Part shown: piece after piece, positions 1,940-38,346 of the stretch | How the letters are laid out: each line of letters opens with the position of its first letter | Numbering within the stretch: position 1 is the stretch's first letter | Source: Caballeronia concitans | GTDB taxonomy: Bacteria > Pseudomonadota > Gammaproteobacteria > Burkholderiales > Burkholderiaceae | Direction of reading: 5' to 3' | Assembly: GCF_001544615.1 (NCBI RefSeq) | Contig: NZ_FCNV02000008.1 | Coordinates: 1 to 64,000 of the forward strand | Length of the DNA: 64,000 nt | Made by a program: the position numbers and the translations under genes | Notes under the pieces: model-generated | The model's database searches: none | What the model was told of the DNA's origin: nothing | What the model saw: the letters and a program-made list of their open reading frames with translations, nothing else

Positions 1940-2892
1940 ACGAGCCGATCGACGCGCATCGGACGCAATACGTCATCGACGTACGCAAGCTCAACAAGCA
2001 CTTCGGCGACAAGCACGTCGTCAACGATGTCTCGCTGCAAGTCGCGCGCGGCGAAATCTTCGGCTTCCTGGGTCCGAACGGAAGCGGCAAGACCACATCG
2101 ATCCGCCTCATGTGCGGTCTGCTCACGCCCGATTCCGGCAGCGGCACATGCCTCGGCTACGACATCGTGCGCGAGAGCGAAGAGATCAAGCGCAACGTCG
2201 GCTATATGACGCAGCGCTTCTCGTATTGGGAGGACCTGACGATCCGCCAGAATCTCGACTTCGTGGCGCGCATCTATCAGATGGCGAATCGTCGCGAAGT
2301 GGTGGATCGTTCGCTCGAAGCGCTCGGCCTGCAAAGCCGCGCGAATCAATTGACGGGATCGCTTTCGGGCGGCTGGAAGCAACGCCTCGCGCTGGCTGCG
2401 TGCATGCTGCACGAGCCGAAGCTGCTGCTGCTCGATGAACCCACCGCCGGCGTCGATCCCACCGCGCGTCGTGATTTCTGGGAAGAGTTGCATCGGCTCG
2501 CGGCGAACGGCATCTCGGTGCTCGTGAGCACGCACTACATGGATGAAGCCGAGCGATGTCACAAGCTCGCGTACATCGCCTATGGAAAGCTCCTTGCCCA
2601 AGGCACCGCGAACGAAGTGATCGCATCGCAAGGGCTTGCGACATGGAGCATCCACGGCGAACGTCTGAGCGCATTGTCGGGACGCTTGCGCAAGACGCCA
2701 GGCGTCGATCAAACCGTGGTCTTCGGATCGGCGCTGCATGTCAGCGGCAGCGATCACGCAGCACTCGAACGCGCCGTGTACGATGCGACGAAAGACAGCG
2801 CGCTACGCGCCGAGCAAATCGACACGGGCCTCGAAGACGTGTTCATCTATTTGATGAGCCGCTCCACCGATAACTTCAAGGTGAGTTCATGA
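1936..2892 (+). CDS. ABC exporter ATP-binding protein (YbhF/DrrA type)
   Basis: A 318-residue nucleotide-binding subunit. Visible motifs: Walker A GPNGSGKT (residues 46-53), ABC signature LSGGWKQR, Walker B LLLLDEP followed by TAGVDP, and the H-loop STH. The C-terminal 80 residues form the extension usual in ABC-2 exporters. YbhF itself carries two ATPase domains while this protein has one, so it should work as a homodimer with the permease. It overlaps both neighbours by 4 bases (ATGA), implying translational coupling. Its role is ATP-driven efflux of an unknown, probably hydrophobic or toxic compound. Confidence 0.9.
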   Translation: MNEPIDAHRTQYVIDVRKLNKHFGDKHVVNDVSLQVARGEIFGFLGPNGSGKTTSIRLMCGLLTPDSGSGTCLGYDIVRESEEIKRNVGYMTQRFSYWEDLTIRQNLDFVARIYQMANRREVVDRSLEALGLQSRANQLTGSLSGGWKQRLALAACMLHEPKLLLLDEPTAGVDPTARRDFWEELHRLAANGISVLVSTHYMDEAERCHKLAYIAYGKLLAQGTANEVIASQGLATWSIHGERLSALSGRLRKTPGVDQTVVFGSALHVSGSDHAALERAVYDATKDSALRAEQIDTGLEDVFIYLMSRSTDNFKVSS

Positions 2893-4031
2893 GCGCTCGC
2901 GTGCGTTTCTCGGTGACGCGCTGGTGGAGCATCGTGCTCAAGGAGTTCCTGCAATTGCGGCGCGACCGCATCACGTTCGCGATGATCGTCGGCTTGCCGA
3001 TCATTCAACTCGCGCTCTTCGGCTATGCGATCAACACCGATCCGAAGCACTTGCCGACTGCGATCATCGCGGGCGAAAACAGCACGTTCTCGCGCAGCTT
3101 CATCGCGGCGATGCGCAACTCCGAGTACTTCGATATCGTCGAAACGCTTCCGGACGACGAAGCCGGCCGGCGCGCACTCGCGCAAGGCCGCGTGCTTTTC
3201 GTGCTGAACATACCGACGGATTTTTCACGCCGGCTCTTGCGTGGCGAACGCCCCGCGTTGCTCGTCGAAGCCGACGCGACCGATCCCACCGCGGTCAGCC
3301 GCGCGACCAGCGCATTGAGCGGCCTCGTTGCATCGGTCGAGTCGAAGGACATCACCGGCCCGCTCGCAAGACTCGCCGGCAAGCCTCCCGCGTTCGACGT
3401 GCAGGTGCATCATCTCTACAACCCTGAAGGCATCACGCAATATAACGTCGTGCCCGGCCTCATGGGCGTGATCCTGACGATGACGCTCGTGATGATGACC
3501 GGCCTCGCGATCACGCGCGAACGCGAACGCGGCACGATGGAGAATCTCCTTGCGACACCCGTGCGCCCCATCGAAGTGATGACGGGCAAGATCGTGCCTT
3601 ACGTGTTCATCGGTTTGATACAGGCGACGATCATTCTTCTCGCCACGCACTTCGTCTTCCATGTGCCGTTGGCCGGCAATCCGATCGCCATCTATCTTTC
3701 GGCGCTGCTCTTTATCGCGGCCAACCTGACGGTGGGCATCACGCTGTCGTCGCTTGCACAGAACCAGCTTCAGGCGATGCAGCTCACGTTCTTCTATTTC
3801 CTGCCGAACATTCTGCTTTCGGGCTTCATGTTCCCTTTCGCGGGCATGCCGAAGTGGGCGCAATTCATCGGCAATCTTCTGCCGCTCACGTACTTCAACC
3901 GTCTCATTCGCGGCATTCTTCTGAAGGGCAACGGCTGGGCCGATCTATGGCCTTCGGTGTGGCCGATGGTCCTCTTCACGCTGATCGTCATGTGCATTGC
4001 GCTGCGCTTCTACCGGCGCACGCTCGATTAG
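2889..4031 (+). CDS. ABC-2 type exporter permease
   Basis: A 380-residue membrane subunit with the ABC2_membrane_3 plan: an N-terminal helix (residues about 29-49), a large periplasmic domain to about residue 180, then five or six helices. The conserved stretch TRERERGTMENLLATPVRP between the second and third helices is the family coupling signature. The last conserved block is LPLTYFNRLIRGILLKGNGW. Only one permease gene is present, where E. coli YbhFSR has two, so a homodimer is inferred. It is coupled to the ATPase gene and followed 12 bases later by the outer-membrane factor. Confidence 0.9.
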   Translation: MSARVRFSVTRWWSIVLKEFLQLRRDRITFAMIVGLPIIQLALFGYAINTDPKHLPTAIIAGENSTFSRSFIAAMRNSEYFDIVETLPDDEAGRRALAQGRVLFVLNIPTDFSRRLLRGERPALLVEADATDPTAVSRATSALSGLVASVESKDITGPLARLAGKPPAFDVQVHHLYNPEGITQYNVVPGLMGVILTMTLVMMTGLAITRERERGTMENLLATPVRPIEVMTGKIVPYVFIGLIQATIILLATHFVFHVPLAGNPIAIYLSALLFIAANLTVGITLSSLAQNQLQAMQLTFFYFLPNILLSGFMFPFAGMPKWAQFIGNLLPLTYFNRLIRGILLKGNGWADLWPSVWPMVLFTLIVMCIALRFYRRTLD

Positions 4032-4042
4032 GAGGCGCGCAA

Positions 4043-5449
4043 ATGAAACCCCTCGCAGCCATTTGCGTGCTGATGCTCGGCGGCTGCACCGTCGGCCCGG
4101 ATTTTCATGCGCCCGCCCCGCCCGATACACAGTCTTACACGCGAAGCACGTCGCAAGCCCAAGCCGTTGCCGATCACGCGCTGCCGCAATGGTGGAAGCA
4201 GTTCGGCTCGGATACGTTGAACGGTCTCGTCGATCAGGCGTTGCATAACAGTCCGACGCTCGGCCAGGCTCGCGCGCGGCTGACGCAAGCGCGCGAGGAC
4301 TATCAGGCGCAAGCGGGCGCCACGTACTTCCCTGCTGTCGATGCCTCGTTCTCCGCCTCGCGTCAGAAAGTGGACCCCGCCGCGTTCGGCGTTCCGGTGC
4401 CGAGCCCCGGCCCGTTCACGCTATACGATGCATCGGTGAGCGTGTCCTATACGCTCGATGTCTTCGGCGGCGATCGTCGCGCGCTCGAAGCATTGCGCGC
4501 GCAAGTGGACTATCAATCGTTCGAACTCGATGCGGCGCGTTTGTCGATAGCGGGCAACGTCGTTTCCACGGCGATCCGTCGCGCTTCATTGCAGCAGCAG
4601 ATCACGCTGACGCAAAGCATCGCCGATGCACAGGCGCAGCAGCTCGCCATCATGGAAGCGCGGCTGAATGCGGGCGGCGTGGCACGCTTCGATGTTCGGA
4701 GCCAGCGCACGCTCCTCGAACAGACGCGCGCGAGCTTGCCATCGCTCGTCACTCAGCGCGATGCAGCCGATCATCGGCTCGCGATTCTCCTGGGCGTCGA
4801 GCCATCGAAAGCGGACTTCGACGCGCTCACGCTCGATGCACTGCGCGCGCCGGACGACGTGCCGCTCACGTTGCCATCGACGCTCGCGCGCGAACGCCCC
4901 GACATTCGCGCGTCGGAGGCGTTGCTGCATCAGGCGAGCGCGAACGTCGGCGTGGCGACGGCGGATCTTTATCCGAAGCTCTCGTTATCGGCGGGCGTGG
5001 GTTCGCAACGCACGAGCATTCACGACATGCTCGACAAGCTGAATGTGTGGAACGTCGGCCTCAATCTGACGCAGCCGCTTTTTCGCGGTGGCGAATTGCG
5101 TGCGAGAAAGCGTTCCGCTGAAGCGGCCTACGATGCCGCGACGAGCGCGTATCGGCAAACCGTGCTCGATGCGCTTCAGCAAGTGGCGGATGCATTGACC
5201 GCGTTGCAAAACGACGCACATGCGGTGGCGTTGCGCGATATCGCGGCTGACGAGGCGCAAGCGAATCTCGATACGGTCCACGCGCGTCATGCCGCGGGTG
5301 GCGTGAGCCGCTTCGATCTACTCGATACGCAAAGGCAAGCGCTGCAAACGCAACTCGACCGCGCGCTTGCGCATGCGAGCCGTCTCAGCGATACAGCTGC
5401 GCTGTTTCAGTCGCTTGGCGGCATCGAAAAAGAGCGCTTGAATGATTGA
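4043..5449 (+). CDS. TolC-like outer-membrane efflux lipoprotein (NodT family)
   Basis: A 468-residue outer-membrane factor. The start at 4043 is preceded by GGAGG (4031-4035) and gives a lipoprotein signal MKPLAAICVLMLGGC with Cys15, followed by TVGPDF, the classic opening of OprM/NodT lipoproteins. Two homologous coiled-coil/barrel halves are visible; the GVARFDVRSQ and GGVSRFDLLDTQR repeats mark equivalent helices. RPDIRASEALLHQASANVGVATADLYPKLSLSAGVG is typical of the family and is given here only as landmarks RPDIR and YPKLSL. It completes a four-gene tripartite efflux operon. The longer upstream frame overlaps the permease and is not used. Confidence 0.9.
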   Translation: MKPLAAICVLMLGGCTVGPDFHAPAPPDTQSYTRSTSQAQAVADHALPQWWKQFGSDTLNGLVDQALHNSPTLGQARARLTQAREDYQAQAGATYFPAVDASFSASRQKVDPAAFGVPVPSPGPFTLYDASVSVSYTLDVFGGDRRALEALRAQVDYQSFELDAARLSIAGNVVSTAIRRASLQQQITLTQSIADAQAQQLAIMEARLNAGGVARFDVRSQRTLLEQTRASLPSLVTQRDAADHRLAILLGVEPSKADFDALTLDALRAPDDVPLTLPSTLARERPDIRASEALLHQASANVGVATADLYPKLSLSAGVGSQRTSIHDMLDKLNVWNVGLNLTQPLFRGGELRARKRSAEAAYDAATSAYRQTVLDALQQVADALTALQNDAHAVALRDIAADEAQANLDTVHARHAAGGVSRFDLLDTQRQALQTQLDRALAHASRLSDTAALFQSLGGIEKERLND

Positions 5450-5462
5450 ATGAGCGCGCGGC

Positions 5463-7373
5463 TTACTCGGCGAAGCGGCCCTGTACCGCGCGCTGAATTT
5501 CCGCGAACGCGACCGGCTTCACGAGATGATGATCGAAGCCCGCTTCCTTCGAACGCTGGCGATCATGCGCCTGGCCGTATCCGGTCACGGCGATCAGCAA
5601 TGCATCGGCGGTTGCGGGGCGCGCGCGCATTTCGGCGGCCAGCCGGAAGCCGTCCATGCCGGGCAAGCCGATATCGAGCAGCACGATCTGCGGAAGGAAC
5701 GCCTCGGCGATATCGAGCGCCTCCGCCCCGTCATGCGCGGTGCGCACATCGAAGCCATCGGCTTCGAGAAGCAGCGCCATCGCGGTGGCCGCATCGACGC
5801 TGTCATCGACGAGCAATACGCGCTTGCCGCCTGTCACGCGCGGCGCTTCATCGACGGGATGCGACTCGGGCCGCGGCTCCTTCGCGAGCGGCAGCCACAC
5901 GACGAACTCGCTGCCGTGCTGCGGCCCCGCCGAATACGCCTCGATGCGCCCGCCCTGCAATTCGACGAGCGTCTTCGCGAGCGGCAAGCCGATGCCGAGC
6001 CCGCCCTCCGACCGTTCGAGCGATGTCTCGGACTGCACGAAAAGATCGAAGATATGCGGCAGCATGTCCGGCGCGATGCCGATGCCGTTGTCGCGCACCG
6101 TGATGCGCACTTCGTCGCCGAACTGCGCGGTCTCGATCGCGATCTCGCCTTCCTCGATGCTGTACTTCGACGCATTCGACAGCAGATTGCCGAACACCTG
6201 CGCAATGCGCACGCTATCGCCGACGATATAGAGCGGCGCGTCCGCGAGCCGTGTCGTGAGCTTGTGACGCTTGCGCTCCAGCGCGGGCTGCGCGGTTTCG
6301 ATAGCCGCTTCGACCGCCGCCGCGACATCCACCGCTTCCTGCCGCAGCGTGATCTTGCCCTGCGTGATGCGCGCGACATCGAGCAGATCGTCGACGAGGC
6401 GGCTCAAGTGCCGCACTTGCCGGTCGATGATCGTGCGCACCGTCGCGAAGTGCTGCGCGGACGGCGCGCGCTGCGGGTCGAGCAGATCGACGGCATTGCG
6501 GATCGGCGCGAGCGGATTGCGCAACTCGTGCGCGAGCATCGCGAGGAATTCGTCCTTGCGGCGATCGGCGTCGCGCAGCAGCATTTCGGCGGCCTTGCGC
6601 TCGGAGATATCGTTGACGACGCCCGCGATACGCACGGGCCGGCCATCCGCGCCGCGCACCTGCGACGCGCGCTCCGCCACCCAGAGCGGCCCGCCGTGCG
6701 CCCGCGCGATGCGGTATTCGACCTGATACGGCGCGCCGCTCGTCAGCAATTGCCGATACGCCGCCGCCACATGCTCGCGGTCCAGCGGATGAATGTCGCC
6801 GGACCAGTGATCCGGACCCGGACGCGGCGCGGGCGCGCCTTCGCCGGAATCCCACAGGCGCGCGTAGGCGGGACTCACGTAGAGCAATTGATTCGCGGCG
6901 GGATCGAGCATCCAGAATACGTCGTCGATATTCTCGGCGAGCTGCCGGAAGCGCTCTTCGCTTTCGCGCAGCGCGCTTTCCGCTAGCCGCACGCGCAACA
7001 GCGCGCGCACGTGCGCGATGAGTTCGGCGGGTTCGACCGGCTCCGTCAGATAACTGTCCGCGCCGCCTTCCAGACCGCGAATGCGGTCGAGGCTATGCAC
7101 CGCCGCCGCCGACGTCTGCAGCACCAGCGTGCTCGCCGTCTCCGGCGACGCCTTGATCTGGCGGCACACTTCGAGGCCGTTGATATCGGGCAGCTTCACG
7201 TCGAGCAGCACCAGATCCGGCGATTCCGCGCGCACCCGCTCCAGCGCGGCGGTACCGGTTCCCGCTTCGATCACGTTGAAACCCGCGCGCGACAAGATAC
7301 GCGTTTTCGCATAACGCGCGCCGTCGTTGTCATCGACGTTGAGAATCAGCACCTCGCTCCAGTCGCTTTTCAT
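5463..7373 (-). CDS. REC-PAS-histidine kinase-REC hybrid sensor kinase
   Basis: A 636-residue soluble protein with no membrane helix. Order of domains: N-terminal receiver (about 8-125, phosphoacceptor Asp58 in LLDVKLP), PAS/PAC (about 135-262), HisKA with His282 in AHELRNPL, HATPase (N-box NLLSNASKYS, G-box DNGIGI), and a C-terminal receiver with LLDIGLPGMDGF. It is the last gene of the stressosome operon; its start overlaps the stop of the preceding kinase (ATGA). An N-terminal receiver in front of a kinase means its activity is probably set by phosphotransfer, plausibly from the upstream kinase or another histidine kinase. No DNA-binding output is present, so the final target lies elsewhere. 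Confidence 0.88.
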   Translation of the reverse strand: MKSDWSEVLILNVDDNDGARYAKTRILSRAGFNVIEAGTGTAALERVRAESPDLVLLDVKLPDINGLEVCRQIKASPETASTLVLQTSAAAVHSLDRIRGLEGGADSYLTEPVEPAELIAHVRALLRVRLAESALRESEERFRQLAENIDDVFWMLDPAANQLLYVSPAYARLWDSGEGAPAPRPGPDHWSGDIHPLDREHVAAAYRQLLTSGAPYQVEYRIARAHGGPLWVAERASQVRGADGRPVRIAGVVNDISERKAAEMLLRDADRRKDEFLAMLAHELRNPLAPIRNAVDLLDPQRAPSAQHFATVRTIIDRQVRHLSRLVDDLLDVARITQGKITLRQEAVDVAAAVEAAIETAQPALERKRHKLTTRLADAPLYIVGDSVRIAQVFGNLLSNASKYSIEEGEIAIETAQFGDEVRITVRDNGIGIAPDMLPHIFDLFVQSETSLERSEGGLGIGLPLAKTLVELQGGRIEAYSAGPQHGSEFVVWLPLAKEPRPESHPVDEAPRVTGGKRVLLVDDSVDAATAMALLLEADGFDVRTAHDGAEALDIAEAFLPQIVLLDIGLPGMDGFRLAAEMRARPATADALLIAVTGYGQAHDRQRSKEAGFDHHLVKPVAFAEIQRAVQGRFAE

Positions 7374-9130
7374 GATGTCGTTCCGTCGCCGCGAAGGGCA
7401 CCGTTCATTCTGCCCGACACCATATCCAGCACGCCCGCCAATTCCCCGCCGGAAACCGGCTTTTGCACGAATGCGGCCGCGCCGAGCGCCTGGGCTTCAT
7501 CGCGGTCTTCCGGCTCGCCCAGCACGACGACAGGAATATTGCGCGTGGCCGCCTGCGCGCGCAGCGCCGCGAGCCAGATCCACGCTTCGGACGGCGCGGG
7601 CCGCACGGCGAGCAGCAGCGCGGCGGGCGGCGTACGCGACAGCGCGCGGCTCGCTTCGTCGAGCGTGGCGGCGCTGATCGTCCGATACGGCGATTGCCGC
7701 AACGCCGCTTCGCAATCGAGCCGTTCGATCGGATTGCTCGCGACGAGCAGCACCGCCGGCACCGCCTCGCCGTGGGCGGCGGCGTGCTCGGCTTCGGAGA
7801 CGCCGTAGAAAGCGGGAATCGTCGCGTTGAAGGTCGAGCCGCGCCCGGCCTCGCTTTCGAGCGACACATCGCCGCCCAGCAGCTTGCAGAGCTTGCGGCA
7901 CAGCGGCAAGCCGAGGCCCGTGCCTTTCACATATTGTTGAAGCCGGTTCTCGACCTGGCCGAATTCCTCGAATACCACTTGCTGATGTTCCGGCGCAATG
8001 CCGATGCCCGTGTCCTTCACCGAGAACGTGATGAGCCGGCGCGCTTCGTCGTAATGCGCGGACACGCGCACTTCGCCGCGCTCCGTGAACTTCAGCGCGT
8101 TCGACACGAAATTGCGCAGCACTTGCGCGACCTTGGCTTCGTCGGTGCGAATGGGCGGCAGGCCTTCGCAGGACTCGAATATCAGTTCGACGGCGTTGCC
8201 CGGCGTGAGCGGCCGCAGCATGCCGCGCAGCGCGGAAAAGAGCGTATCGACTTCGAATTCGGCCGCGCGGACTTCGATCTTGCCCGCTTCGATCTTCGCG
8301 AGATCGAGCAGGTCATCGACCGTTTCGGACAGGTCTTCCGCCGCCTTGCGAATGAAGCGCACCTGCTTTTCCTGCTCTTCCGTGAGATCGCCGTCGATGC
8401 GTTCCAGCAGCAGCTTCGAGAGCGCGCGGATCGACGAAAGCGGCGTGCGGAATTCGTGGCTCATGTTCGACAGGAACCGCGACTTCGATTCATCCGCGCG
8501 ACGCAGATGATCCGCGCGGGCGTCGAGTTCCGCGTACAGCGCGACGACGCCGCGATTCGTGTCTTCGAGTTCGCGCGTGAGGCGCGTCAATTCTTCCTGG
8601 CGTTCGCGCAGATCGGCGAGCGCGCCGATCAGTTCGCGGTTCTGCCGCGCGAGTTCGGCGGTCGAATCCTCAGTGTTCTGGCGCGTGAGCGTCGCGGCGA
8701 TGGACTGCGCGGCGTTCGCATCGAGCGACACGCTTTCGGGCAGCGCCTTCGCGAGCGAGATGGACGTGCCGCCGTCGGGATCGTCGGCGATCGCGCACTG
8801 ATCCATCAGACGTTGCGCGGCGAGCAGGCCGAGCGCGGCTTGCGATGCGTCGCTCTTCATCGCGCGCAGACGTTCGCCCGCGCCCGCGCCGGCGAGAAAT
8901 CGCACGACGAAGCGCGGCGGATACATCGCGTCGTCGAGCAAAAAATCCGCACGCGCGCGCGGCCCCGCCGAGAGCACCGTGCGCGCCGCTTCGAGCACGG
9001 ACGTGGAAATACGCGTCTGGTCCTGCGTCGAGAAGCCGAGCGCGGCGCTGGCATCGCGCGCCTTGCGCCGGGCGGCGACGATATCGCGCTCGTCGTCGAT
9101 CTCCATCGAGTAGAGCGGACGCGCCATCAT
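7370..9130 (-). CDS. hybrid histidine kinase with RsbT-like N-terminus and pseudo-receiver
   Basis: A 586-residue soluble kinase. Residues about 9-130 resemble an RsbT/anti-sigma GHKL domain (ERDIVAARRKAR, GFSTQDQTRI), but the ATP-binding N-box is replaced by LEAARTV, so this part is probably catalytically dead. A coiled coil (about 155-215) leads to HisKA with His225 in SHEFRTPL, then a HATPase domain (DTGIGI; GTGLGLPL). The C-terminal domain (about 460-575) has a receiver fold pattern, but the phosphoacceptor position reads LLLAVRP with no Asp. The start ATG overlaps the upstream TGA; a second in-frame ATG follows immediately. Its place in the operon suggests it reads RsbS/RsbR status and passes phosphate to the next protein. 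Confidence 0.85.
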   Translation of the reverse strand: MMARPLYSMEIDDERDIVAARRKARDASAALGFSTQDQTRISTSVLEAARTVLSAGPRARADFLLDDAMYPPRFVVRFLAGAGAGERLRAMKSDASQAALGLLAAQRLMDQCAIADDPDGGTSISLAKALPESVSLDANAAQSIAATLTRQNTEDSTAELARQNRELIGALADLRERQEELTRLTRELEDTNRGVVALYAELDARADHLRRADESKSRFLSNMSHEFRTPLSSIRALSKLLLERIDGDLTEEQEKQVRFIRKAAEDLSETVDDLLDLAKIEAGKIEVRAAEFEVDTLFSALRGMLRPLTPGNAVELIFESCEGLPPIRTDEAKVAQVLRNFVSNALKFTERGEVRVSAHYDEARRLITFSVKDTGIGIAPEHQQVVFEEFGQVENRLQQYVKGTGLGLPLCRKLCKLLGGDVSLESEAGRGSTFNATIPAFYGVSEAEHAAAHGEAVPAVLLVASNPIERLDCEAALRQSPYRTISAATLDEASRALSRTPPAALLLAVRPAPSEAWIWLAALRAQAATRNIPVVVLGEPEDRDEAQALGAAAFVQKPVSGGELAGVLDMVSGRMNGALRGDGTTS

Positions 9131-10161
9131 GCAGCTCCGGCCGCGCGTGCGACGAACACGGTCACGTCGTCGCGGCCGCGCGAAGAATCGCGGTACAGCA
9201 CTGCGGCAACGAGCGCCGGATGCCGCGTGCTCAGGCCCGGATAACGTTCGAGGTCCCAGCGCGAGCCGAGTCCGTCCGAATGCAGGACGACGAGCGAATC
9301 GCGCGAATACGGCACGTCGAACTGCTGCACGCGCCGCGCCGCATGCCCGACGATGCCGCTATGCGACACCAGATGCCGGTGCGAACTGTGCGTCCACACG
9401 CTCGCCGCGATATTGCCGATGCCCGTGAACGCGACCTTCCCGTCCGCGCCCGCTGCCGCCGCGCCCGCCGGCATGCGCGCGATGCCGACCGCCGCGCCGC
9501 GCGTCGGACGCAGCGCTTCGTTGGCCACGTCCATGATGCGTTCGAGCGGCGCGTCGCCGTGCGTGCCGAGCACGCGCGCCGCCTCGATCGCGGCGACGTT
9601 GGCGAGCGGCCCGTGGCCGAGACCGTCGGCGACGAGCACGGTGAAGTCATCGTCGCCGAAATGGCAGGACCAGGCATCGCCCGATACGGTTTCGGTCTGA
9701 AGCGGCAGATTCACGACGCCGTACGTCACGCCCGCATCGTTCGTGGATGCCGCGCCCGCGCTGCTCCAGCACACGATGCGCATCACGGTGCCTTGTCCGG
9801 GCACGCTCCAGACATCGAGCTCGGAAGACAGGCGGCGGATGGCGCCCATGCCGTTGCCGGGGCTGCCGGCCGTGGTATAGCCGTCCTCGAAAGAGCGGTA
9901 AAGATCCTGAATGCCCGGCCCGCGATCGATGCACAGCATTTCGATGCCGCATCGCTGCGAGCCGTCCAGAAGCGGACGCACGAGCAGCTCGCCACTGCCC
10001 GCGTGCTTGAGCAGATTGGTGCCGCATTCGGTGACGACGATCGCGAGCTGGCCCGCGACCGTCTCGTTGAAACGGAGGCCGCGCGCCAGTTCGCCGATCG
10101 AGCGTCGCGCGAAGGCAATCTGGCTCGCCTCGGCGATCTCGTACCGCTGCTGCGCCGCCAT
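9127..10161 (-). CDS. RsbT-like kinase domain fused to SpoIIE/RsbX-type phosphatase
   Basis: A 344-residue protein with two parts. Residues about 10-130 form a GHKL kinase of the anti-sigma type (N-box ECGTNLLKH with Asn49, G1 box DRGPGI with Asp79, glycine-rich GNGMGAIRR). Residues about 145-344 form a PP2C/SpoIIE-like phosphatase with metal-binding aspartates in SGDAW (Asp162), VADGLGHG (Asp179), HSDGL and GRDDVT. In the Bacillus stressosome RsbX removes phosphate from RsbS and RsbR; the phosphatase half is the likely counterpart. The start at 10161 is preferred because GAAGGA precedes it; an upstream in-frame ATG at 10185 overlaps rsbT and lacks a ribosome-binding site. Confidence 0.85.
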   Translation of the reverse strand: MAAQQRYEIAEASQIAFARRSIGELARGLRFNETVAGQLAIVVTECGTNLLKHAGSGELLVRPLLDGSQRCGIEMLCIDRGPGIQDLYRSFEDGYTTAGSPGNGMGAIRRLSSELDVWSVPGQGTVMRIVCWSSAGAASTNDAGVTYGVVNLPLQTETVSGDAWSCHFGDDDFTVLVADGLGHGPLANVAAIEAARVLGTHGDAPLERIMDVANEALRPTRGAAVGIARMPAGAAAAGADGKVAFTGIGNIAASVWTHSSHRHLVSHSGIVGHAARRVQQFDVPYSRDSLVVLHSDGLGSRWDLERYPGLSTRHPALVAAVLYRDSSRGRDDVTVFVARAAGAA

Positions 10162-10169
10162 TGATTCCT

Positions 10170-10622
10170 TCAAAACGGTTTCCATTTGGTGATCGAGACG
10201 TGCGTGCCCTCGCCGGGCGCCGAGCGGATGTCGAACTCGTCGCACAGGCGTTTCGCGCCGCCCAAGCCCAGTCCCAGGCCGCTGCCCGAGGTGAAGCCGT
10301 CCGAGAGCGCGCGGGCGATGTCGGGAATGCCGGGGCCGTTATCGACGAATTCGAGCTTGAGGCCGCGGCGGCCATTGCGTTCGACGATCGTGCAATGCAC
10401 GTCGCCGCCGCCGCCGTAAATGAGCGTGTTGCGTGCCAGCTCGCTCGCCGCCGTCACGAACTTCGTCTGATCGATGAGCGACAGGCCCTGCGCCACCGCC
10501 TTTTCGCGCACGAACTGGCGCAGCCGCACGATCTGCTCGTCGTTGCGGATGGGCAGCGTGTCGGATGGTGGCGAGGCAAACTGCGCTGCCGAGGGTTGAA
10601 AGGTCATCATGGGCTGGTTCAC
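10170..10622 (-). CDS. rsbT: RsbT-like serine/threonine kinase
   Basis: A 150-residue single-domain GHKL kinase. The N-box SELARNTLIYGGGG (Asn65) and G-box VDNGPGIPD (Asp94), followed by the glycine-rich GSGLGLGLGGAKRL, are intact, so it should bind ATP. In the RsbR/S/T paradigm this switch kinase sits in the stressosome, phosphorylates RsbS and RsbR on stress, and is then freed to activate a downstream partner. It begins with GTG 8 bases after the rsbS stop; an in-frame ATG at 10610 is a possible alternative. About 20 residues precede the domain. Confidence 0.85.
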   Translation of the reverse strand: MNQPMMTFQPSAAQFASPPSDTLPIRNDEQIVRLRQFVREKAVAQGLSLIDQTKFVTAASELARNTLIYGGGGDVHCTIVERNGRRGLKLEFVDNGPGIPDIARALSDGFTSGSGLGLGLGGAKRLCDEFDIRSAPGEGTHVSITKWKPF

Positions 10623-10630
10623 AGCAGCCG

Positions 10631-10990
10631 TCAGGCCGCGCTGCTCCCGGTGAGGAGCGCCATGCCCTTTTCGACGTTGAGCGCCGTGCGCACGCCCGAC
10701 AGCGTGAGCCCGAGCTCGACGAGCGTGATCGCGACCGAAGGCTGCATGCCGACGACGACCGTCTGCGCATCGAGCACGCGCGCCATCGCCGCCGTGTTGC
10801 CGATCATGCGGCCGATGAAGGAATCGACCACATCGAGCGATGAAATGTCGATCAGCACGCCGGTCGCGCCGTCCTTCACGATGCGGCCCGTCAGATCGTC
10901 CTGCAGCGCGAGCGCGAGGCGGTCGTGCATGTCCACCTGAATGGTGACGAGCAAGAGCTTGCCCATCCTGAGAATCGGAATGCGTTCCAT
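10631..10990 (-). CDS. rsbS: RsbS-like STAS antagonist
   Basis: A 119-residue single STAS domain starting MERIPILRMGKLLLV, close to Bacillus RsbS (recalled, not aligned). The motif DISSLDVVDSF contains Ser57, which matches the phosphorylated serine of RsbS by its DSF context, and GMQPSVAITLVELG is the usual second conserved block. The ATG at 10990 is chosen over the adjacent GTG at 10993 because AGGG lies 7 bases upstream. The protein would form the stressosome core with RsbR and hold RsbT. It is the second gene of the operon. Confidence 0.87.
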   Translation of the reverse strand: MERIPILRMGKLLLVTIQVDMHDRLALALQDDLTGRIVKDGATGVLIDISSLDVVDSFIGRMIGNTAAMARVLDAQTVVVGMQPSVAITLVELGLTLSGVRTALNVEKGMALLTGSSAA

Positions 10991-11041
10991 CACGTGGCCC
11001 TGTTCAGTCGCGTTGCATGCTGTTGAAGAATCCGCGCGCCG

Positions 11042-11962
11042 TCATTCCGGCAGCGACGAATCGTGCATGCCGCCGGCCGCACCGTGGCGCGCCGCGCCTT
11101 CGTGCGCCCCAGCCAGCGTCACCGACTTGCCCGTGCGCTGCAACGCGACGACGAACGCGGCCGCGAGCGTCGCCTTGGTCGTCACGTTTTGCAGGTTCAC
11201 GCCCAGATGCACGATGGTCTGCGCGATCTGCGGACGAATGCCGCTGATGATGCAGTCCGCGCCCATCAGCCGCGCCGCCGCGACCGTCTTCAGAAGATGC
11301 TGCGCGACGAGCGTATCGACGGTCGGCACGCCGGTGATGTCGATGATCGAGATGGCCGCGCCGGTCTCGACGATCTTCTGCAGCAGGTTCTCCATGACCA
11401 CTTGCGTGCGCGCCGAATCCAGCGTGCCGATCAGCGGCAGCGCGAGAATGCCGTCCCACAGTTGCACGACAGGCGTGGACAGTTCGAGCAACTCTTGTTG
11501 CTGACGCACGATCACTTGCTCACGGCTCGCCTGGAACACTTCGGTGGTGTACAGGCCGAGTTCGTCGAACAGTGCGCTGATGGTCCAGGTTAGATCGGCG
11601 AGCGCGGCGGCGTCGTTGACCAGTTCTTCGCGAAGGCGAGCAACGAGCGGCTGCTTCAGCGAGAACACGAACATCGCCGTTTCGACCGGCGAGAAGCCCT
11701 GACGCGCGCGCTGGCCGGACATATCCGCGAGAAACGCGCGCACTTCCTGCCATTCGGCTTTCTTGAAGTCGACGCGATCAGACGCTCCCAGCGCCGCGAC
11801 GAGCAGCGAGACGAATTGCGCGAACTGATTGCGCAGTTCCGCTTCGCCGACGAGCCCGCGCCGCGCCGCGATGGCGTGCTGTTGCGTGATCCATTCCGTC
11901 AGCAGTTCCGTCTGTTGGTTGCTGAAGAGTTTGGCGAGCCGCGTTCCGCCGACCATTTCCAT
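11042..11962 (-). CDS. rsbR: RsbR-like stressosome sensor (globin-like N-domain plus STAS)
   Basis: A 306-residue protein. The helical N-terminal half (about 1-150, LLTEWITQQ ... FSPVETAMFVFSLKQPL) is the RsbR-type sensory domain, not an obvious heme globin; a linker (QQQELLELSTPVVQLWDGIL) precedes a STAS domain (about 160-280). Both threonine-containing motifs expected for phosphorylation are present: GVPTVDT (Thr217) and GIRPQIAQT (Thr249). The start at 11962 has AGGGA 9 bases upstream; the longer frame to 12097 has none. It is the first gene of the six-gene operon and the likely signal input. The gap to rsbS is 51 bases. Confidence 0.87.
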   Translation of the reverse strand: MEMVGGTRLAKLFSNQQTELLTEWITQQHAIAARRGLVGEAELRNQFAQFVSLLVAALGASDRVDFKKAEWQEVRAFLADMSGQRARQGFSPVETAMFVFSLKQPLVARLREELVNDAAALADLTWTISALFDELGLYTTEVFQASREQVIVRQQQELLELSTPVVQLWDGILALPLIGTLDSARTQVVMENLLQKIVETGAAISIIDITGVPTVDTLVAQHLLKTVAAARLMGADCIISGIRPQIAQTIVHLGVNLQNVTTKATLAAAFVVALQRTGKSVTLAGAHEGAARHGAAGGMHDSSLPE

Positions 11963-12339
11963 GCCGAGATCCCTGTGCGAATGATGTTTTTGTGGGCGCC
12001 GAGCCCCCGACGAACGATGCGTCGCTTGACTGCAGATCAGGGCCGCGAGCAGTCGCGCACCGCGCAGAGCGACGCAAAGGCGCTCGGAATGTAGCACGCC
12101 ATCTCAAAAATCGACAGTGCGCGGCCCCTTGATTCGAGAGACTTCGTCTGATTGTTGCGCGATTCCGCCGAAGAATCGTAAGGATCGGCACATGCTGCCG
12201 ATCCGGCTCACTGACTCGGTCATAGTTTCCGTGCGAATCGGCAGAGGTTCATGGCATACCGCAGATAGCAGCCCGAATATTTTTTCGCGCGATGCACGGT
12301 GCAATACTGGTCCGGCACATTTCTGCCACCGGAGCGCAC
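11963..12339. promoter_or_regulatory. divergent intergenic region between rsbR and the NCS2 permease
   Basis: A 377-base region that must hold the promoters of both the rsb operon and the permease. The one clear structure is the inverted repeat GGATCGGCA-N5-TGCCGATCC (12182-12204), without a T-run, so more likely an operator or mRNA structure than a terminator. Short reading frames here have no ribosome-binding site and are not called. I could not place convincing -35/-10 pairs. Confidence 0.4.
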
Positions 12340-13704
12340 ATGTCCCAAACGATTCATCCCGTCGACGAAGTGCTGCCCTTCGGTCAGATGCTCGCCGTCG
12401 GCATTCAGCATGTGCTCGTGATGTATGCGGGAGCGATAGCGGTGCCGCTCATCATCGGCGCGGCGCTTAAATTGCCGAAAGATCAGGTGGCGTTCCTCAT
12501 CAGCTCGGACCTGTTCGCGTGCGGCATCGTCACGCTGGTGCAGTGCATCGGAGTGTGGAAGTTCGGCATACGATTGCCGGTCATCATGGGCGTGAGCTTC
12601 GCGCCCGTCGGACCGATGGTCGCGATGGCTTCGTCCGGCGCGGGGCTGCCCGCCATCTTCGGCGCGACCATCGCGGCGGGCGTGTTCGCCATCGTCATTG
12701 CGCCGTTTTTCGGGCGTTTGATGCGCTTTTTCCCGCCTATCGTCACGGGCACGATCATCCTTACGATCGGCATGACGCTCTTTCCGGTGGCGATCTACTG
12801 GGCGGCCGGCGGACGCGGCGCGCCGCATTTCGGCGACCCGCGCAATCTGATGATCGCGGGCATCGTGCTGCTCGCGATTCTGCTCATCAACAAGTACCTG
12901 CGCGGATTCATCGCGAACATATCGGTGCTGCTCGGCATGGCGATCGGCTTTGCCATTGCGCTGCCGCTCGGCCTGATCGACTTCTCCGGCATCGGGCGCG
13001 CCGCGTGGTTCGCGCCGGTGCGGCCGTTCGCGTTCGGCATGCCGACGTTCGACTTCGCGGCCATTGCTTCACTGTGTCTCGTGATGGTCGTCATCATGGT
13101 GGAATCGCTCGGCATGTTCCTCGCGCTCGGCGATCTCGCGATGCGTCCGGTCTCGCGCGCCGACGCCACGCGCGGCCTGCGCACCGACGGTCTTGGCACG
13201 GTAATCGGCGGCATCTTCAACACGTTCCCGCATTCTTCGTTTTCGCAGAACATCGGGCTTGTCGGCATCACGGGCGTGAAAAGCCGCTGGGTGGTCGCGG
13301 TATCGGGCGTCATCCTGATGTTGCTCGGGCTCTTGCCGAAGCTGTCGAACCTCATTGCATCGATACCGGTCGTCGTGCTGGGCGGCGCGGGCATCGCCAT
13401 GTTCGGCATGGTCGCGGCCACCGGCGTGAAGATCCTCAGCAAGGTGGATTTCGAAAGCAAGAACAACCTGCTCATCGTGGCGATCAGCCTTGGCGTGGGC
13501 GTCATTCCGCTGACCGCGCCGACGTTCTTCGGCCAGATGCCCGCGTGGGCCGGGCCGCTCACCCATAGCGGCATCACGCTGACGGCGGTGGTCGCCATTC
13601 TGCTCAATGCGCTCTTCAATCGAGGCCGGCCCACCGACGACGTGCAACGTGAAATCGCGGCCGATATGCCTCTAAGCTTGCGCCAGGGCGACGACAACGC
13701 TTGA
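12340..13704 (+). CDS. NCS2 family xanthine/urate permease
   Basis: A 454-residue inner-membrane transporter with about 12-14 helices. The first helix carries GIQHVLVMYAGAIAVPLI, the form seen in xanthine and urate carriers (XanQ/UacT/PbuX), and the family signature appears as QNIGLVGITGVKSR preceded by HSSF. These features favour oxidised purines over uracil, but the exact substrate cannot be fixed by eye. The start at 12340 has GGAG 5 bases upstream; the frame to 12292 adds an unlikely leader. No purine catabolic genes are adjacent. It is divergent from rsbR. Confidence 0.87.
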   Translation: MSQTIHPVDEVLPFGQMLAVGIQHVLVMYAGAIAVPLIIGAALKLPKDQVAFLISSDLFACGIVTLVQCIGVWKFGIRLPVIMGVSFAPVGPMVAMASSGAGLPAIFGATIAAGVFAIVIAPFFGRLMRFFPPIVTGTIILTIGMTLFPVAIYWAAGGRGAPHFGDPRNLMIAGIVLLAILLINKYLRGFIANISVLLGMAIGFAIALPLGLIDFSGIGRAAWFAPVRPFAFGMPTFDFAAIASLCLVMVVIMVESLGMFLALGDLAMRPVSRADATRGLRTDGLGTVIGGIFNTFPHSSFSQNIGLVGITGVKSRWVVAVSGVILMLLGLLPKLSNLIASIPVVVLGGAGIAMFGMVAATGVKILSKVDFESKNNLLIVAISLGVGVIPLTAPTFFGQMPAWAGPLTHSGITLTAVVAILLNALFNRGRPTDDVQREIAADMPLSLRQGDDNA

Positions 13705-34408: not shown

Positions 34409-35058
34409 GACAGCAACGGCTCGGCTGCATCGAGCATGATCTTCACGAAGTAATCCGCGAAGCTCCGGCGCACGATGATCTCGAAGCGATCCGCACCGAG
34501 CGGCACGAGCGTGATCGACGCCTTGAAGTAATGGCTCTGCGCACACTGTCCCACGCCGAACATCTTCGGATGCAGGTCGAGCGGGCAGCCGCGCGACAGC
34601 ACATCGCGTGTGCGCGGTCCGTCGATATCGAGCACCGTGTAGCCGCTGCCGATATCCACCGCCGACGCAAACGCGCCCGCGAACGCATCGCGCAAACGTG
34701 CTTCGAGCGGCGCGATGCGCGACGCATCATGCGCGACTTCCGACACCACGAGCCATTCGTCCGGGCCGAGCCACAGCATGTCGTAGCCGTTGCCCTTCGC
34801 GATGGTGTTCGGCCTCTCAGGCGGCGCACAGCCGATCACGCTCTGCACCGCTTGCACGAAGGCCGCGTCGCGCGTATCGCCGCGCACGTTCACGAGTTGC
34901 AGGAACGGACGCTCCGTCAAACGAAACGCCTTCGATGCGCCCGCCTGATGCGCCTTCATCAACGCATCGGCGCCCACGAGCGGCGACTCCTGCCACACGC
35001 CCTGCCCGACCGTCACGCGATCGACGACAGTCGAGGAACCTCTGGTTTCATTCAACAT
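34405..35058 (-). CDS. soxG: sarcosine oxidase gamma subunit
   Basis: A 217-residue subunit of heterotetrameric sarcosine oxidase with a GcvT-like fold (LWLGPDEWLVV, DIGSGYTVLDIDGP, RGCPLDLHP). The start at 35058 has AAGGAG 9 bases upstream and overlaps the end of soxA by 11 bases. SoxG stabilises the complex and does not carry a cofactor of its own in known enzymes. It is followed by the coupled folB-like gene. Confidence 0.9.
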   Translation of the reverse strand: MLNETRGSSTVVDRVTVGQGVWQESPLVGADALMKAHQAGASKAFRLTERPFLQLVNVRGDTRDAAFVQAVQSVIGCAPPERPNTIAKGNGYDMLWLGPDEWLVVSEVAHDASRIAPLEARLRDAFAGAFASAVDIGSGYTVLDIDGPRTRDVLSRGCPLDLHPKMFGVGQCAQSHYFKASITLVPLGADRFEIIVRRSFADYFVKIMLDAAEPLLS

Positions 35059-38050
35059 GCTGACGTGCTCCTTCGCTGTCGTAGAACACCGAACTGGTGA
35101 TCTTTGCGTTGATCTGCTTGCCGCCCGCAAGCGGGATCGTGACCGATTCGCCGATCTTGTCGAGGCCGCCCTTCACGACGGCCAACGCAATCGAACGCTT
35201 CAAAACAGGGCTGAAATAGCTCGACGTGACATGACCGAGCATCGGCGCGGTATCGCCCTGGAACGGACCCGCGACGATCTGCGCGCCTTCGGGCAGCACG
35301 AACGACGGATCGTCCGTGAGCAAGCCGACGAACTGCTTGCGTCCCGCCTTCGCAGTATCCGAGCGCGTGAGCGAACGCTTGCCGATGAAGTCCTTCGACT
35401 TCGCGACGAGCCCGCCCATGCCGAGGTCGTACGGCGTCATCGAGCCGTCCGTGTCCTGCCCGACGATGATGTAGCCCTTCTCCGCGCGCAGCACGTGCAT
35501 CGTTTCCGTGCCGTAAGGCGTGATGTCGAATTCCGCGCCCGCTTCCATCAACGCTTCCCATACCGCGCGGCCCACGTTCGCCGGCACGTTCACTTCATAG
35601 GCCAGCTCGCCCGAGAAGCTGATGCGCATCACGCGCGCCGATGCACCCGCCACCGTGCCATCGCGATAGCTCATGAACGGGAACGCGCCATTAGCGAAGT
35701 CGATGTCCTGACACACCTTCTGCAACACCTTGCGGCTGTTCGGACCGACGACGGCGAAGGTCGCCCAATGATCCGTCACCGATGCGAGGCGCACGCGCAT
35801 GTCGGGCCATTCGGTCTGCAGCCAGCGTTCGAGCCACGTGAGCACGCGCGCCGCGCCGCCGGTGGTCGTCGTCATCATGTAGTGATGTTCGGCGAGGCGC
35901 ACGGTCACGCCATCGTCGAAGATCATGCCGTTTTCGTCGAGCATCAGGCCATAACGGCACTTGCCCACTTCCAGCTTGCTCCACGGGTTCGTATAGACCC
36001 AGTTGAGCAGCTTGGCCGCATCGGGGCCTTGAATGTCGATCTTGCCGAGCGTCGATGCATCCAGAATACCGACGCTTTCGCGCACCGCGAGCGACTCGCG
36101 CGCGACCGCCGCGTGCATGTCCTCGTTGCCGCGCGGGTAGTACCACGGCCGCTTCCAGTTGCCGACATCCTCGAACATCGCGCCGTTCTGCACGTGCCAT
36201 TCGTGAATGGCGGTCTTGCGCACCGGATCGAGAAACTCGCCCAGCTCGCGGCCCGCGAACGTGCCGAACGTCACCGGCGTGTAGTTCGGACGGAACGTGG
36301 TCGTGCCCGTTTCCGGAATGGTCTTGCCGAGCGCTTGCGCAAGAATCGCCATGCCGTTGATGTTGCCGAGCTTGCCCTGATCGGTGCCGAAGCCCATCGC
36401 CGTATAACGCTTGACGTGCTCGACGGATTCGAAGCCTTCACGCGCCGCGAGATAGATGTCGGCGGCGGATACGTCGTTCTGGAAATCGACGAACTGCTTC
36501 GGACCGCGCGTGGCAAGCTCGCGACCGCCGACGATCCACAGCGGCATCAACGGCGCTTCCACGATTTCTGCCACTTTCACCGCTTCCGGCCGCGCGACGA
36601 TGTGCCCTGCCGCGCGCGCCGCTTCCGCGCCTGCATCGAGACCGAAGCGAATGCCGCGCGCCAGCGTGAATTCGCCCGCGCATGCGCCGACGCTGCTTTC
36701 GGCCTGCATCGCCTTGCCGGGAACGAAGCACGCTTTCTCGTCGTGCCAGTGCGCCTTCCCGCCCGATTGCGCGAAGAGATGCAGCACGGGGCTCCATCCG
36801 CCCGACATCGCGACGAGATCGCAAGGCAGGTCCGTTTGCTTCGCGCCGACTTGTCCCTTCGCATACGCGGCCACTTCCACCGACGACACGCGCAGCTTGC
36901 CGTGCGCCGCGGTCACGACCGCTTCGTTGAGCACGCGCACGCCATAGCGCCGCGCGGCTGCGGGCAATGCGCCTTTCGATTCCATCGGACGCGGATCGAC
37001 GACCGTCACGTTCGCGCCCGCTGCCTTGAGATCGAGCGCGCATTGATACGCGTCGTCGTTGTTGGTGAACACGACGGCGTTGCGGCCCGGCAGCACCGCA
37101 TAGCGATGCAGATACGTGGATACCGCCGATGCCAGCATCACGCCCGGCAAATCGTTATTGCCGAACACGATGGGACGCTCGTGCGCGCCCGTCGCGAGAA
37201 TCACGCGCTTCGCACGCACTTTCCACATCAGTTCGCGCGTGCCCTTGCGCATCGACACAGGCAGATGTTCGGTCAGACGCTGCGTCACCGTGACGAGGTT
37301 GTGGTCCTGATAGCCGAACGCCGTGCTGCGCGAAAGTATCTTCACGTCAGGCATTTTTCGCAATTCGGCTTCCACTTTCTGCACCCATTGCAGCGCGGAC
37401 TTGCCATCGATCTCGGCGCGGCACGACAAGAGCGAGCCGCCGAGTTCCGGCTGATCGTCGACGAGCATCACGCGCGCACCCGACAGACCCGCCGCATACG
37501 CAGCAGCGAGACCCGACGGTCCGCCGCCGACCACGAGCACGTCGCAATGCGCGAAGCACTTGTCGTAGCGGTCCGCATCGCGCTGTTCGGGCGCCTTGCC
37601 GAGACCGGCTGCATCGCGGATCACTTCTTCGTACTTCGGCCACATCTTGCGCGGCCACATGAACGTCTTGTAGTAGAAGCCCGCCGGAATGAAGCGCGCG
37701 ATCTTCTGATTGACCGCCATGCGATCGTTCTCGATGTTCGGCTTCGCGTTCACGCTCTCGGCAACGAGTCCCTGATACAGCTCGACTTCCGTCGCGCGCG
37801 CGTTCGGCACCGTATAAGCGCCTTTTTCAAGCTGCACGACGGCATTCGGCTCTTCGACACCCGCCGTCACGATGCCGCGTGGCCGGTGATACTTCCAGCT
37901 ACGCGCGACGAAGTGCTGTCCGTTCGCGAGCAATGCGGAGGCGAGCGTGTCGCCCTGAAAGCCCTGATACGTCTTGCCGTTGAACGTGAACGTCAGCGCG
38001 ATGGCGCGATTGATGCGCCCGCCCGTGGCGAGTCGGTCTTTCTGGCTCAT
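35048..38050 (-). CDS. soxA: sarcosine oxidase alpha subunit
   Basis: A 1000-residue protein with the SoxA plan: an N-terminal 2Fe-2S-fold-like segment (FNGKTYQGFQGDTLASALLANG; landmark GDTLASALLANG), a dinucleotide-binding region VLVVGGGPSGLAAAYAAG (about 170-190), a middle oxidoreductase domain, and a C-terminal GcvT-like domain (about 600-990) that binds tetrahydrofolate. The complex oxidises sarcosine to glycine and makes 5,10-methylene-THF plus hydrogen peroxide. It overlaps soxD by 4 bases and soxG by 11. The very long plus-strand frame opposite it is a GC-rich shadow. Confidence 0.93.
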   Translation of the reverse strand: MSQKDRLATGGRINRAIALTFTFNGKTYQGFQGDTLASALLANGQHFVARSWKYHRPRGIVTAGVEEPNAVVQLEKGAYTVPNARATEVELYQGLVAESVNAKPNIENDRMAVNQKIARFIPAGFYYKTFMWPRKMWPKYEEVIRDAAGLGKAPEQRDADRYDKCFAHCDVLVVGGGPSGLAAAYAAGLSGARVMLVDDQPELGGSLLSCRAEIDGKSALQWVQKVEAELRKMPDVKILSRSTAFGYQDHNLVTVTQRLTEHLPVSMRKGTRELMWKVRAKRVILATGAHERPIVFGNNDLPGVMLASAVSTYLHRYAVLPGRNAVVFTNNDDAYQCALDLKAAGANVTVVDPRPMESKGALPAAARRYGVRVLNEAVVTAAHGKLRVSSVEVAAYAKGQVGAKQTDLPCDLVAMSGGWSPVLHLFAQSGGKAHWHDEKACFVPGKAMQAESSVGACAGEFTLARGIRFGLDAGAEAARAAGHIVARPEAVKVAEIVEAPLMPLWIVGGRELATRGPKQFVDFQNDVSAADIYLAAREGFESVEHVKRYTAMGFGTDQGKLGNINGMAILAQALGKTIPETGTTTFRPNYTPVTFGTFAGRELGEFLDPVRKTAIHEWHVQNGAMFEDVGNWKRPWYYPRGNEDMHAAVARESLAVRESVGILDASTLGKIDIQGPDAAKLLNWVYTNPWSKLEVGKCRYGLMLDENGMIFDDGVTVRLAEHHYMMTTTTGGAARVLTWLERWLQTEWPDMRVRLASVTDHWATFAVVGPNSRKVLQKVCQDIDFANGAFPFMSYRDGTVAGASARVMRISFSGELAYEVNVPANVGRAVWEALMEAGAEFDITPYGTETMHVLRAEKGYIIVGQDTDGSMTPYDLGMGGLVAKSKDFIGKRSLTRSDTAKAGRKQFVGLLTDDPSFVLPEGAQIVAGPFQGDTAPMLGHVTSSYFSPVLKRSIALAVVKGGLDKIGESVTIPLAGGKQINAKITSSVFYDSEGARQHVE

Positions 38051-38346
38051 TTCGACGCTCCTTCCTTGTTGTCCATTGCAGCCAGCGGACGGTCGAACGT
38101 CTCGTAGCCCTGAATCTCATAGCTCACCGTGTCGCGCTGAACCTTGAACCAGCGACGGCAGCCCTGCGCATGCATCCATTGCTCGCGATGCACGCCGCGC
38201 GGATTACGGCGCATGAAGAGATAGTCGCCCCATTCCTTGTCGGTGAGCTTGTCGGTATCCAGCGGGCGCGCGATATCCGCTTCGCCGCCGCAGGAGAATT
38301 CGGTTTCGGCGCGCGGCCCGCACCAGGGGCATTCGATCAGCAACAT
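38047..38346 (-). CDS. soxD: sarcosine oxidase delta subunit
   Basis: A 99-residue zinc-binding subunit. The motif LLIECPWCGPRAETEFSCGGEA with Cys pairs and the later HAQGCRRWF are typical of SoxD. The ATG at 38346 follows GGGAG. It overlaps soxA by 4 bases and starts 13 bases after soxB, in the standard soxBDAG order. Confidence 0.92.
   Translation of the reverse strand: MLLIECPWCGPRAETEFSCGGEADIARPLDTDKLTDKEWGDYLFMRRNPRGVHREQWMHAQGCRRWFKVQRDTVSYEIQGYETFDRPLAAMDNKEGASK

Follow-up and report, generated by a model that had tools for sequence, protein, structure and literature searches.

We analysed a 64,000-nucleotide stretch of Caballeronia concitans DNA (contig NZ_FCNV02000008.1, positions 1 to 64,000), referred to here as the window, and found at positions 5463-11962 a six-gene operon, all on the minus strand, in which a stressosome module is followed by two histidine kinases. 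The genes run in the order rsbR, rsbS, rsbT, a gene fusing an RsbT-type domain to a PP2C phosphatase domain (the RsbT-PP2C fusion), HK1 and HK2. The first ~135 residues of HK1 are an RsbT-type domain, and the protein has no other recognised input domain. In the window copy this domain lacks residues of the ATP site and keeps residues that face a STAS partner in related switch kinases. The best reading of these sequences is that it is a pseudokinase dock, which would bind RsbS and RsbR as RsbT does and be switched with RsbT. On this view the operon would couple a stressosome to a His-Asp relay by means of a docking domain that is part of the kinase itself, a reading to which we assign a probability of roughly 0.55. 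The association of stressosomes with two-component systems is already known; what is new is the variation on it, an input domain of RsbT type that here has become a pseudokinase.

The RsbT-type domain of HK1 and its distribution

HK1 (7370..9130; 586 aa) consists of the RsbT-like domain (residues 2-135; 8726..9127), a coiled-coil linker (residues 158-213; 8492..8659, its extent set by eye on an alignment), a HisKA domain with His225, a HATPase_c domain and a degenerate receiver (residues about 458-575; 7406..7759). An earlier account of the window made from its letters alone (the sequence-only reading) had described HK1 as a soluble hybrid kinase, and the N-terminal domain had been overlooked. 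Pfam does not detect this domain in the window copy, whether the whole protein or its residues 1-157 alone are searched; among 25 of the 88 matched NCBIfam models none covers it; and phmmer of the domain alone against PDB returned merely weak, unrelated matches. Detecting the homology therefore requires relatives or the operon's own RsbT. With that RsbT, HK1 residues 1-137 share 29% identity over 131 aa (BLASTP, E 7e-8), and no score from 1000 shuffles reached this level (z 15.9). As a shuffle control, five other operon proteins or domains gave z values of at most 2.4, among them 2.1 for the N-domain of the fusion, 2.4 for the HATPase of HK1 and 0.5 for that of HK2. A hidden Markov model (HMM) was seeded with 34 kinase N-domains from relatives, none of them from the window's own lineage, in which the N-box Asn is missing; two seed rows, L054 and L057, come from genomes of the window's genus that carry another version of the operon. 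This model scored 91.7 bits on HK1 residues 2-135, 112.1 on RsbT and 39.7 on the N-domain of the fusion, and on ordinary kinase parts it gave 21.4 bits for the HK1 HATPase and 11.6 for HK2. Comparison of five degenerate N-domains with nine RsbT proteins by hhalign gave 97.1%, and SpoIIAB was the top PDB match of the family profile. By these profile and shuffle comparisons, the HK1 N-domain is a full-length homologue of the RsbT/SpoIIAB switch-kinase family.

Related loci were located by tblastn with the fusion protein in 200 Burkholderiaceae genomes, 60 of which matched (12 of 25 genera); the same query also struck the start of the downstream gene in several relatives. The set of 121 loci comprises the window, 40 from matched Burkholderiaceae genomes and 80 named ones, and since all were found via the fusion protein, it gives no measure of how frequent this kinase type is elsewhere. 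An RsbT-like domain lies N-terminal to a histidine kinase core in 104 of the 121 loci (100 distinct domains), in Pseudomonadota, Cyanobacteriota, Acidobacteriota, Planctomycetota, Gemmatimonadota and Nitrospirota, some of these rows being metagenome bins. Joint occurrence of RsbR, RsbS, RsbT, fusion and kinase in 39 of the 40 fetched Burkholderiaceae loci, the gene order that the sequence-only reading had proposed to search for, shows that the operon is not a chance arrangement; in the named loci RsbR, RsbS and RsbT are all upstream in 76 of 80. By Pfam, ten chosen relatives all have an N-terminal HATPase_c_2 above cut-off followed by HisKA and HATPase_c, and eight have a receiver. The 17 loci without a scored domain are eight with domain-less kinases, an orphan fusion (L070) and eight unscored for technical reasons (downstream frame cut, absent or another frame picked, or kinase core under threshold), of which L119, L129 and L137 nevertheless show an RsbT-like domain. 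When 274 genomes were sampled evenly across the class, 18 of them, counting the source genome of the window, matched the fusion profile at E 1e-30, four over the PP2C part only. A tree of 40 loci and three domain types places the kinase domains in one group of 40 (100, starred), and a single ancient fusion of an RsbT-type domain to a kinase is therefore likely; this tree has 140 columns, leaves many forks open and puts one RsbT row among the fusions.

A different version of the operon is present in four loci of the window's genus (L054, L055, L057 and L059). It has one kinase of ~556-574 aa with a different kinase core, and the N-box of its RsbT-like domain is intact.

Loss of the ATP site and retention of STAS-facing residues

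Among the 104 kinase RsbT-like domains the N-box Asn is kept in 73 and lost in 31 (71 and 29 of the distinct domains), its replacements being Thr in 20, Gly in 6, Ala in 3, Met in 1 and Cys in 1. The G1 Asp is also retained in 69 of the 73 Asn-keeping domains. The window copy has Thr51 at the Asn position, no G1 Asp, Ala99 and Ala104, and is by sequence a pseudokinase; a copy without the N-box Asn and G1 Asp is not expected to phosphorylate. We mapped the loss on a tree of RsbS, RsbT and the fusion, leaving the kinase out. One lost group holds 16 rows of the window's genus, three of Paraburkholderia and one other Burkholderiaceae row; the second holds nine Massilia rows, one of Duganella and one other from Burkholderiales. 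On this tree the Asn must have changed three times, each change being forced by starred branches, and the third is L143, a long branch inside the Massilia/Duganella group on which the Asn is kept and the G1 Asp is absent. Placing all 31 lost rows in a single clade was rejected by the approximately unbiased (AU) test (p 4e-5, on a quick tree without a mixture model). As judged from these trees, the Ser/Thr ATP site is lost in at least two lineages.

The residues of the two lost groups were compared over distinct rows (18 and 11). Every row of both groups keeps Arg21, Ala24, Arg25, Gln36, Asp37, Arg40, Thr43 and Glu47, and Arg50, Phe63, Leu108 and Met109 are likewise invariant across both, while the N-box Asn and G1 Asp occur in no row and Gly99/Gly104 in almost none. 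In a 44-row alignment (A2) the only invariant columns are Arg21, Arg40 and Glu47. Alignment to SpoIIAB equates Glu47 with Glu46 and Arg40 with Glu39, and Arg21 and Glu47 are spaced by 26 residues, as are SpoIIAB Arg20 and Glu46 and RsbW Arg23 and Glu49. In the RsbV-RsbW complex, RsbW Arg23, Asp42, Lys44/Ser48, Glu49 and Tyr118 bond to RsbV, Glu49 doing so at Ser56, where RsbW phosphorylates its partner (PMC7340262). SpoIIAB uses Glu46 as catalytic base and Asn50 to chelate Mg, and its Arg20 and Glu39 are near the SpoIIAA site (PMC10345196). Docking of RsbT on RsbS and RsbR has been modelled after SpoIIAB-SpoIIAA and RsbV-RsbW (PMC9237128). Because ATP- and Mg-binding residues are lost while Arg21, Arg40 and Glu47 are kept in every lost row, we take the domain to be a probable STAS dock. 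Selection was assessed within 13 rows of the window's genus as the ratio of nonsynonymous to synonymous substitution rates (dN/dS). The ratio is 0.13 for residues 14-54 of the HK1 N-domain, 0.11 for RsbT, 0.04 for the HK1 coiled coil and 0.015 for HisKA. We also considered a decaying, unused N-domain, which is disfavoured by the kept residues, by dN/dS and by the clade test, despite a ratio of 0.28 over the whole domain.

Several observations weigh against a dock. The whole-domain ratio, and the 0.34 found for residues 55-98, are well over that of RsbT. Gly101 of the G2 box is lost in the Massilia/Duganella group but kept in the window's, so that not all ATP-site residues are gone in the window's lineage. 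The equation of Arg21 with SpoIIAB Arg20 and RsbW Arg23 comes from equal spacing, not from structure, and SpoIIAB Arg20 is also reported to contact the sigma factor (PMC10345196). Position 40 is Arg in HK1, Lys in 117 of 118 RsbT rows and Glu/Asp in SpoIIAB/RsbW, so that the contact cannot be identical. Retention of the Asn in the majority of kinases means that the domain may be an active Ser/Thr kinase there and that docking need not be the ancestral role. Finally, eight loci (L056, L058, L063-L066, L068 and L142) have the module and a kinase of ~300-330 aa that retains the coiled coil and has no RsbT-like domain, so the domain is not essential for pairing a module with a kinase.

The stressosome core, the relay and competing explanations

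RsbR (11042..11962; 306 aa) has an RsbRD_N sensor (residues 9-110) and a STAS domain (166-269) with Thr217 and Thr249, each present in 116 of 116 related rows. RsbS (10631..10990; 119 aa) is a STAS protein whose Ser57 is present in 116 of 117 rows, the remaining row being unaligned at that position. The switch kinase RsbT (10170..10622; 150 aa, with an alternative start possible at 10607) has intact ATP motifs, its N-box Glu and Asn and G1 Asp and Gly being found in 118 of 118 rows. Pfam assigns RsbRD_N and STAS to RsbR, STAS to RsbS and HATPase_c/HATPase_c_2 to RsbT. By its motifs, then, the operon encodes a predicted stressosome core, with RsbR and RsbS STAS phospho-sites alongside a motif-intact RsbT, as the sequence-only reading had proposed. 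That reading also described the genes as overlapping or nearly so, which agrees with the intergenic gaps of 51, 8, 8, -4 and -4 nt from rsbR to HK2. A promoter/terminator scan found no promoter-like site, and five terminator-like sites, the same number as in shuffles.

The fusion protein (9127..10161; 344 aa) joins an RsbT-domain (residues about 10-129) to an RsbX-type PP2C domain (about 142-339). Pfam reports HATPase_c_2 and SpoIIE, the latter at 23.4 bits, under the 25.0 cut-off. It had earlier been called an RsbT-SpoIIE fusion; as an RsbU-type output phosphatase it was rejected, the PP2C part being nearest to RsbX types. Its nearest solved structures are 3w40, RsbX of B. subtilis, and 3zt9, a Moorella RsbX homologue deposited under 'SpoIIE' and called MtX in PMC4524716. 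The N-box Asn of its RsbT-domain is kept in 118 of 119 rows, the exception being the orphan L070. L070 (4863-6011) is a second such fusion, carried by a genome of the window's genus, with the N-box Asn replaced by His and no rsbRST match alongside.

In the nearly complete source genome (6.17 Mb, completeness 99.97%) no RsbU or RsbW-like protein was found, as the sequence-only reading had supposed for RsbU, with no search aimed at sigma-B. The genome has two further PP2C matches, which are Stp/PppA-like as judged by eye without a family search. Its three RsbT-type domains (A2 profile) all lie within this operon, and its STAS matches comprise RsbR, RsbS and two other open frames, of 595 and 505 codons. 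No DNA-binding domain was found by Pfam in any of the six operon proteins, again as claimed. Taken with the conservation of the arrangement across phyla and the RsbT-type domain on HK1, the failure to find RsbU or RsbW-like proteins lends good support to the earlier suggestion that the kinases are the output.

HK2 (5463..7373; 636 aa) is composed of a receiver, REC1 (Asp58; residues about 10-120, 7014..7346), PAS, HisKA (His282), HATPase_c and a second receiver, REC2 (Asp567); Pfam recovers REC, PAS, HisKA, HATPase_c and REC, and in HK1 HisKA and HATPase_c. Both kinases had been called hybrids. The description holds for HK2, with its His, HATPase and two Asp-bearing receivers; HK1 is a hybrid in outline only: in its C-terminal receiver Ala508 stands in place of the phospho-accepting Asp, and the acidic pair is missing (alignment A3). 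Across the family, the 31 Asn-less kinases have a receiver with Ala (16) or no receiver (15), and the 73 Asn-keeping kinases a receiver with Asp (51) or none (22). Coupling of ATP-site loss to loss of the HK1 receiver (0 of 31 against 51 of 73 intact) was considered and dropped, the comparison resting on three independent pairs and being not significant.

We compared the sixth gene in 10 relatives from six phyla. The N-terminal receiver of its protein is 51-81% identical to REC1 of HK2 and keeps Asp58 in all ten, while PAS, GAF and kinase type vary. In three Burkholderiales relatives HisKA is about as similar as REC1 (67-79%). In the seven outside Burkholderiales, REC1 is the best-conserved part of the sixth protein at 51-64%, HisKA being 22-46% identical over the aligning stretches and REC2 28-37% in the six that have it. 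REC1 thus looks like the conserved partner. Since the receiver of HK1 itself is dead and REC1 with its Asp58 is conserved, phosphotransfer from HK1 to Asp58 of HK2 is a likely next step. The His225-to-Asp58 transfer proposed in the sequence-only reading, which had both positions right, gains support from the same comparison.

From these observations we infer the following route for docking, release and relay. RsbR and RsbS would form the core, whose STAS domains would be occupied by both RsbT and the RsbT-like domain of HK1, with Ser57 of RsbS as the main docking site. When RsbR senses a signal, RsbT would phosphorylate RsbS and RsbR, and both RsbT and HK1 would be released. Release of HK1, or its binding, would alter coiled-coil pairing and switch autophosphorylation at His225, and either the docked or the free form may be the active one. 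Phosphate would pass from His225 to Asp58 in REC1, as the HK1 receiver cannot accept it, and HK2 would add its PAS input and relay via His282 and Asp567 to a regulator encoded elsewhere. The RsbT-PP2C fusion would dephosphorylate RsbS and RsbR and so reset the hub. A broader proposal, which we hold tentatively and at somewhat less than even odds, is that this is a third exit from the stressosome, in which a histidine kinase becomes a client through an RsbT of its own. It would be widespread in six phyla, joining Ser/Thr switching to His-Asp relays, and would derive from an ancestral chain bearing both Ser/Thr and His kinases, whose Ser/Thr site died in at least two lineages and left the dock.

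RsbT itself could instead carry the signal. Free RsbT released from the stressosome might bind or phosphorylate the kinases, much as RsbT activates RsbU in Bacillus through a coiled-coil linker (PMC12143880), and HK1 would in that case offer its RsbT-like domain as a surface for pairing with RsbT, as RsbW pairs with itself via helix 1 and strand 1 (PMC7340262). Histidine kinases bearing RsbU_N do occur in rsbT operons (PMC12143880), but RsbU_N matches neither HK1 nor HK2 at E up to 1, a search of HK1 residues 1-157 alone with the limit raised to E 10 did not find it either, and the residues fully kept in degenerate copies include STAS-facing ones. In the cited part of PMC9237108, tests of Vibrio VvRsbT with VvD1 gave no positive result, although VvD1 was not checked for this domain. 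We consider this explanation unlikely. Contact between RsbT and the kinases, which the sequence-only reading had put forward, is probably not the main one. HK1 brings an RsbT-like domain of its own, whose STAS-binding face is conserved, and contact of HK1 with RsbS/RsbR is therefore likelier.

The N-domain might also do no more than dimerise HK1 or support its structure, as a relic of an active ancestor, with HK1 regulated otherwise and the two systems acting in parallel. The degenerate ATP site, the higher whole-domain dN/dS relative to RsbT and the eight loci that manage without the domain are all in keeping with such a remnant. A remnant fits poorly with at least 11 residues kept in every row of both lost groups, with the low ratio over residues 14-54 and with the want of another recognised input domain in HK1, and we rate it lower still. 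Least probable of all, in our judgement, is that relatives whose site is intact have in this domain a working Ser/Thr kinase for RsbS/RsbR, through which the histidine kinase feeds back, the window copy being derived and silent. The large share of domains that keep the N-box Asn, mostly with the G1 Asp, would suit feedback of this kind, but it is inapplicable to the window copy as it stands, with Thr51 and no G1 Asp.

The operon's nearest named kin is that of Caballeronia grimmiae, whose fusion protein is 88% identical. In the window, genes for an ABC-2 membrane protein and an outer-membrane efflux protein (2889-5449, plus strand) converge on the end of the operon, and a xanthine/uracil permease gene (12292-13704) diverges from its start. 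Elsewhere, at 35048-38107, open frames of 1000 (minus) and 1016 (plus) codons overlap almost fully on opposite strands; a Pfam search of the plus frame gave nothing at E up to 1e-10.

Comparison with known stressosome systems

An RsbT-type domain on the kinase offers a concrete contact by which Gram-negative stressosomes could signal to two-component systems. Published stressosome modules include ones with HisKA/REC or GGDEF proteins downstream, some of which have RsbU_N (PMC9237108), in line with the statement in the sequence-only reading that RsbRST modules next to two-component genes are known elsewhere; in the passage concerned, no RsbU_N was found for the majority of the downstream proteins considered. 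Vibrio mutants link the stressosome and a downstream kinase to metabolism and motility (PMC10014275). In the literature searched (titles, abstracts and passages) we recognised no description of a histidine kinase that carries an RsbT-type domain, though Pane-Farre and colleagues may mention one in their reviews of 2005 and 2017. If true, the proposal of a third exit would supply a link for stressosome-associated kinases without RsbU_N. Operons of this type are found from Burkholderiales to cyanobacteria and Acidobacteria, so what is learned from one would have a wide reach. The lineages that lost the ATP site but preserved the binding face also amount to a natural experiment, one in which docking and catalysis come apart.

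The Bacillus subtilis sigma-B pathway shares RsbR, RsbS, RsbT and an RsbX-type phosphatase with the operon described here; in the window, by contrast, histidine kinases follow, and no RsbU/RsbW-like protein was found in the genome. Closer in layout are the RSTX modules of Vibrio vulnificus and others (PMC9237108), which have rsbR-rsbS-rsbT, an RsbX-type PP2C and, in some, a HisKA/REC protein a few bases on, with no sigma-B cascade in the modules as described there. The differences are that RsbX is a single domain in RSTX modules, whereas in this operon an RsbT-type domain precedes the PP2C in one protein; that RsbR there carries a globin, here replaced by RsbRD_N; and that some RSTX downstream proteins have RsbU_N and most no recognised link, whereas here the kinase bears an RsbT-type domain. 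Within the SpoIIAB/RsbW/RsbT family, the HK1 N-domain is full-length and keeps the Glu that touches the phospho-site in RsbW, yet a histidine kinase follows it in the same chain, and the window copy is missing the N-box Asn, the G1 Asp and both Gly99 and Gly104. The RsbU_N histidine kinases beside rsbT (PMC12143880, PMC9237108) resemble HK1 in having an N-terminal domain presumed to take the stressosome's switching. RsbU_N, however, is a receptor for RsbT, and HK1 instead carries a relative of RsbT itself.

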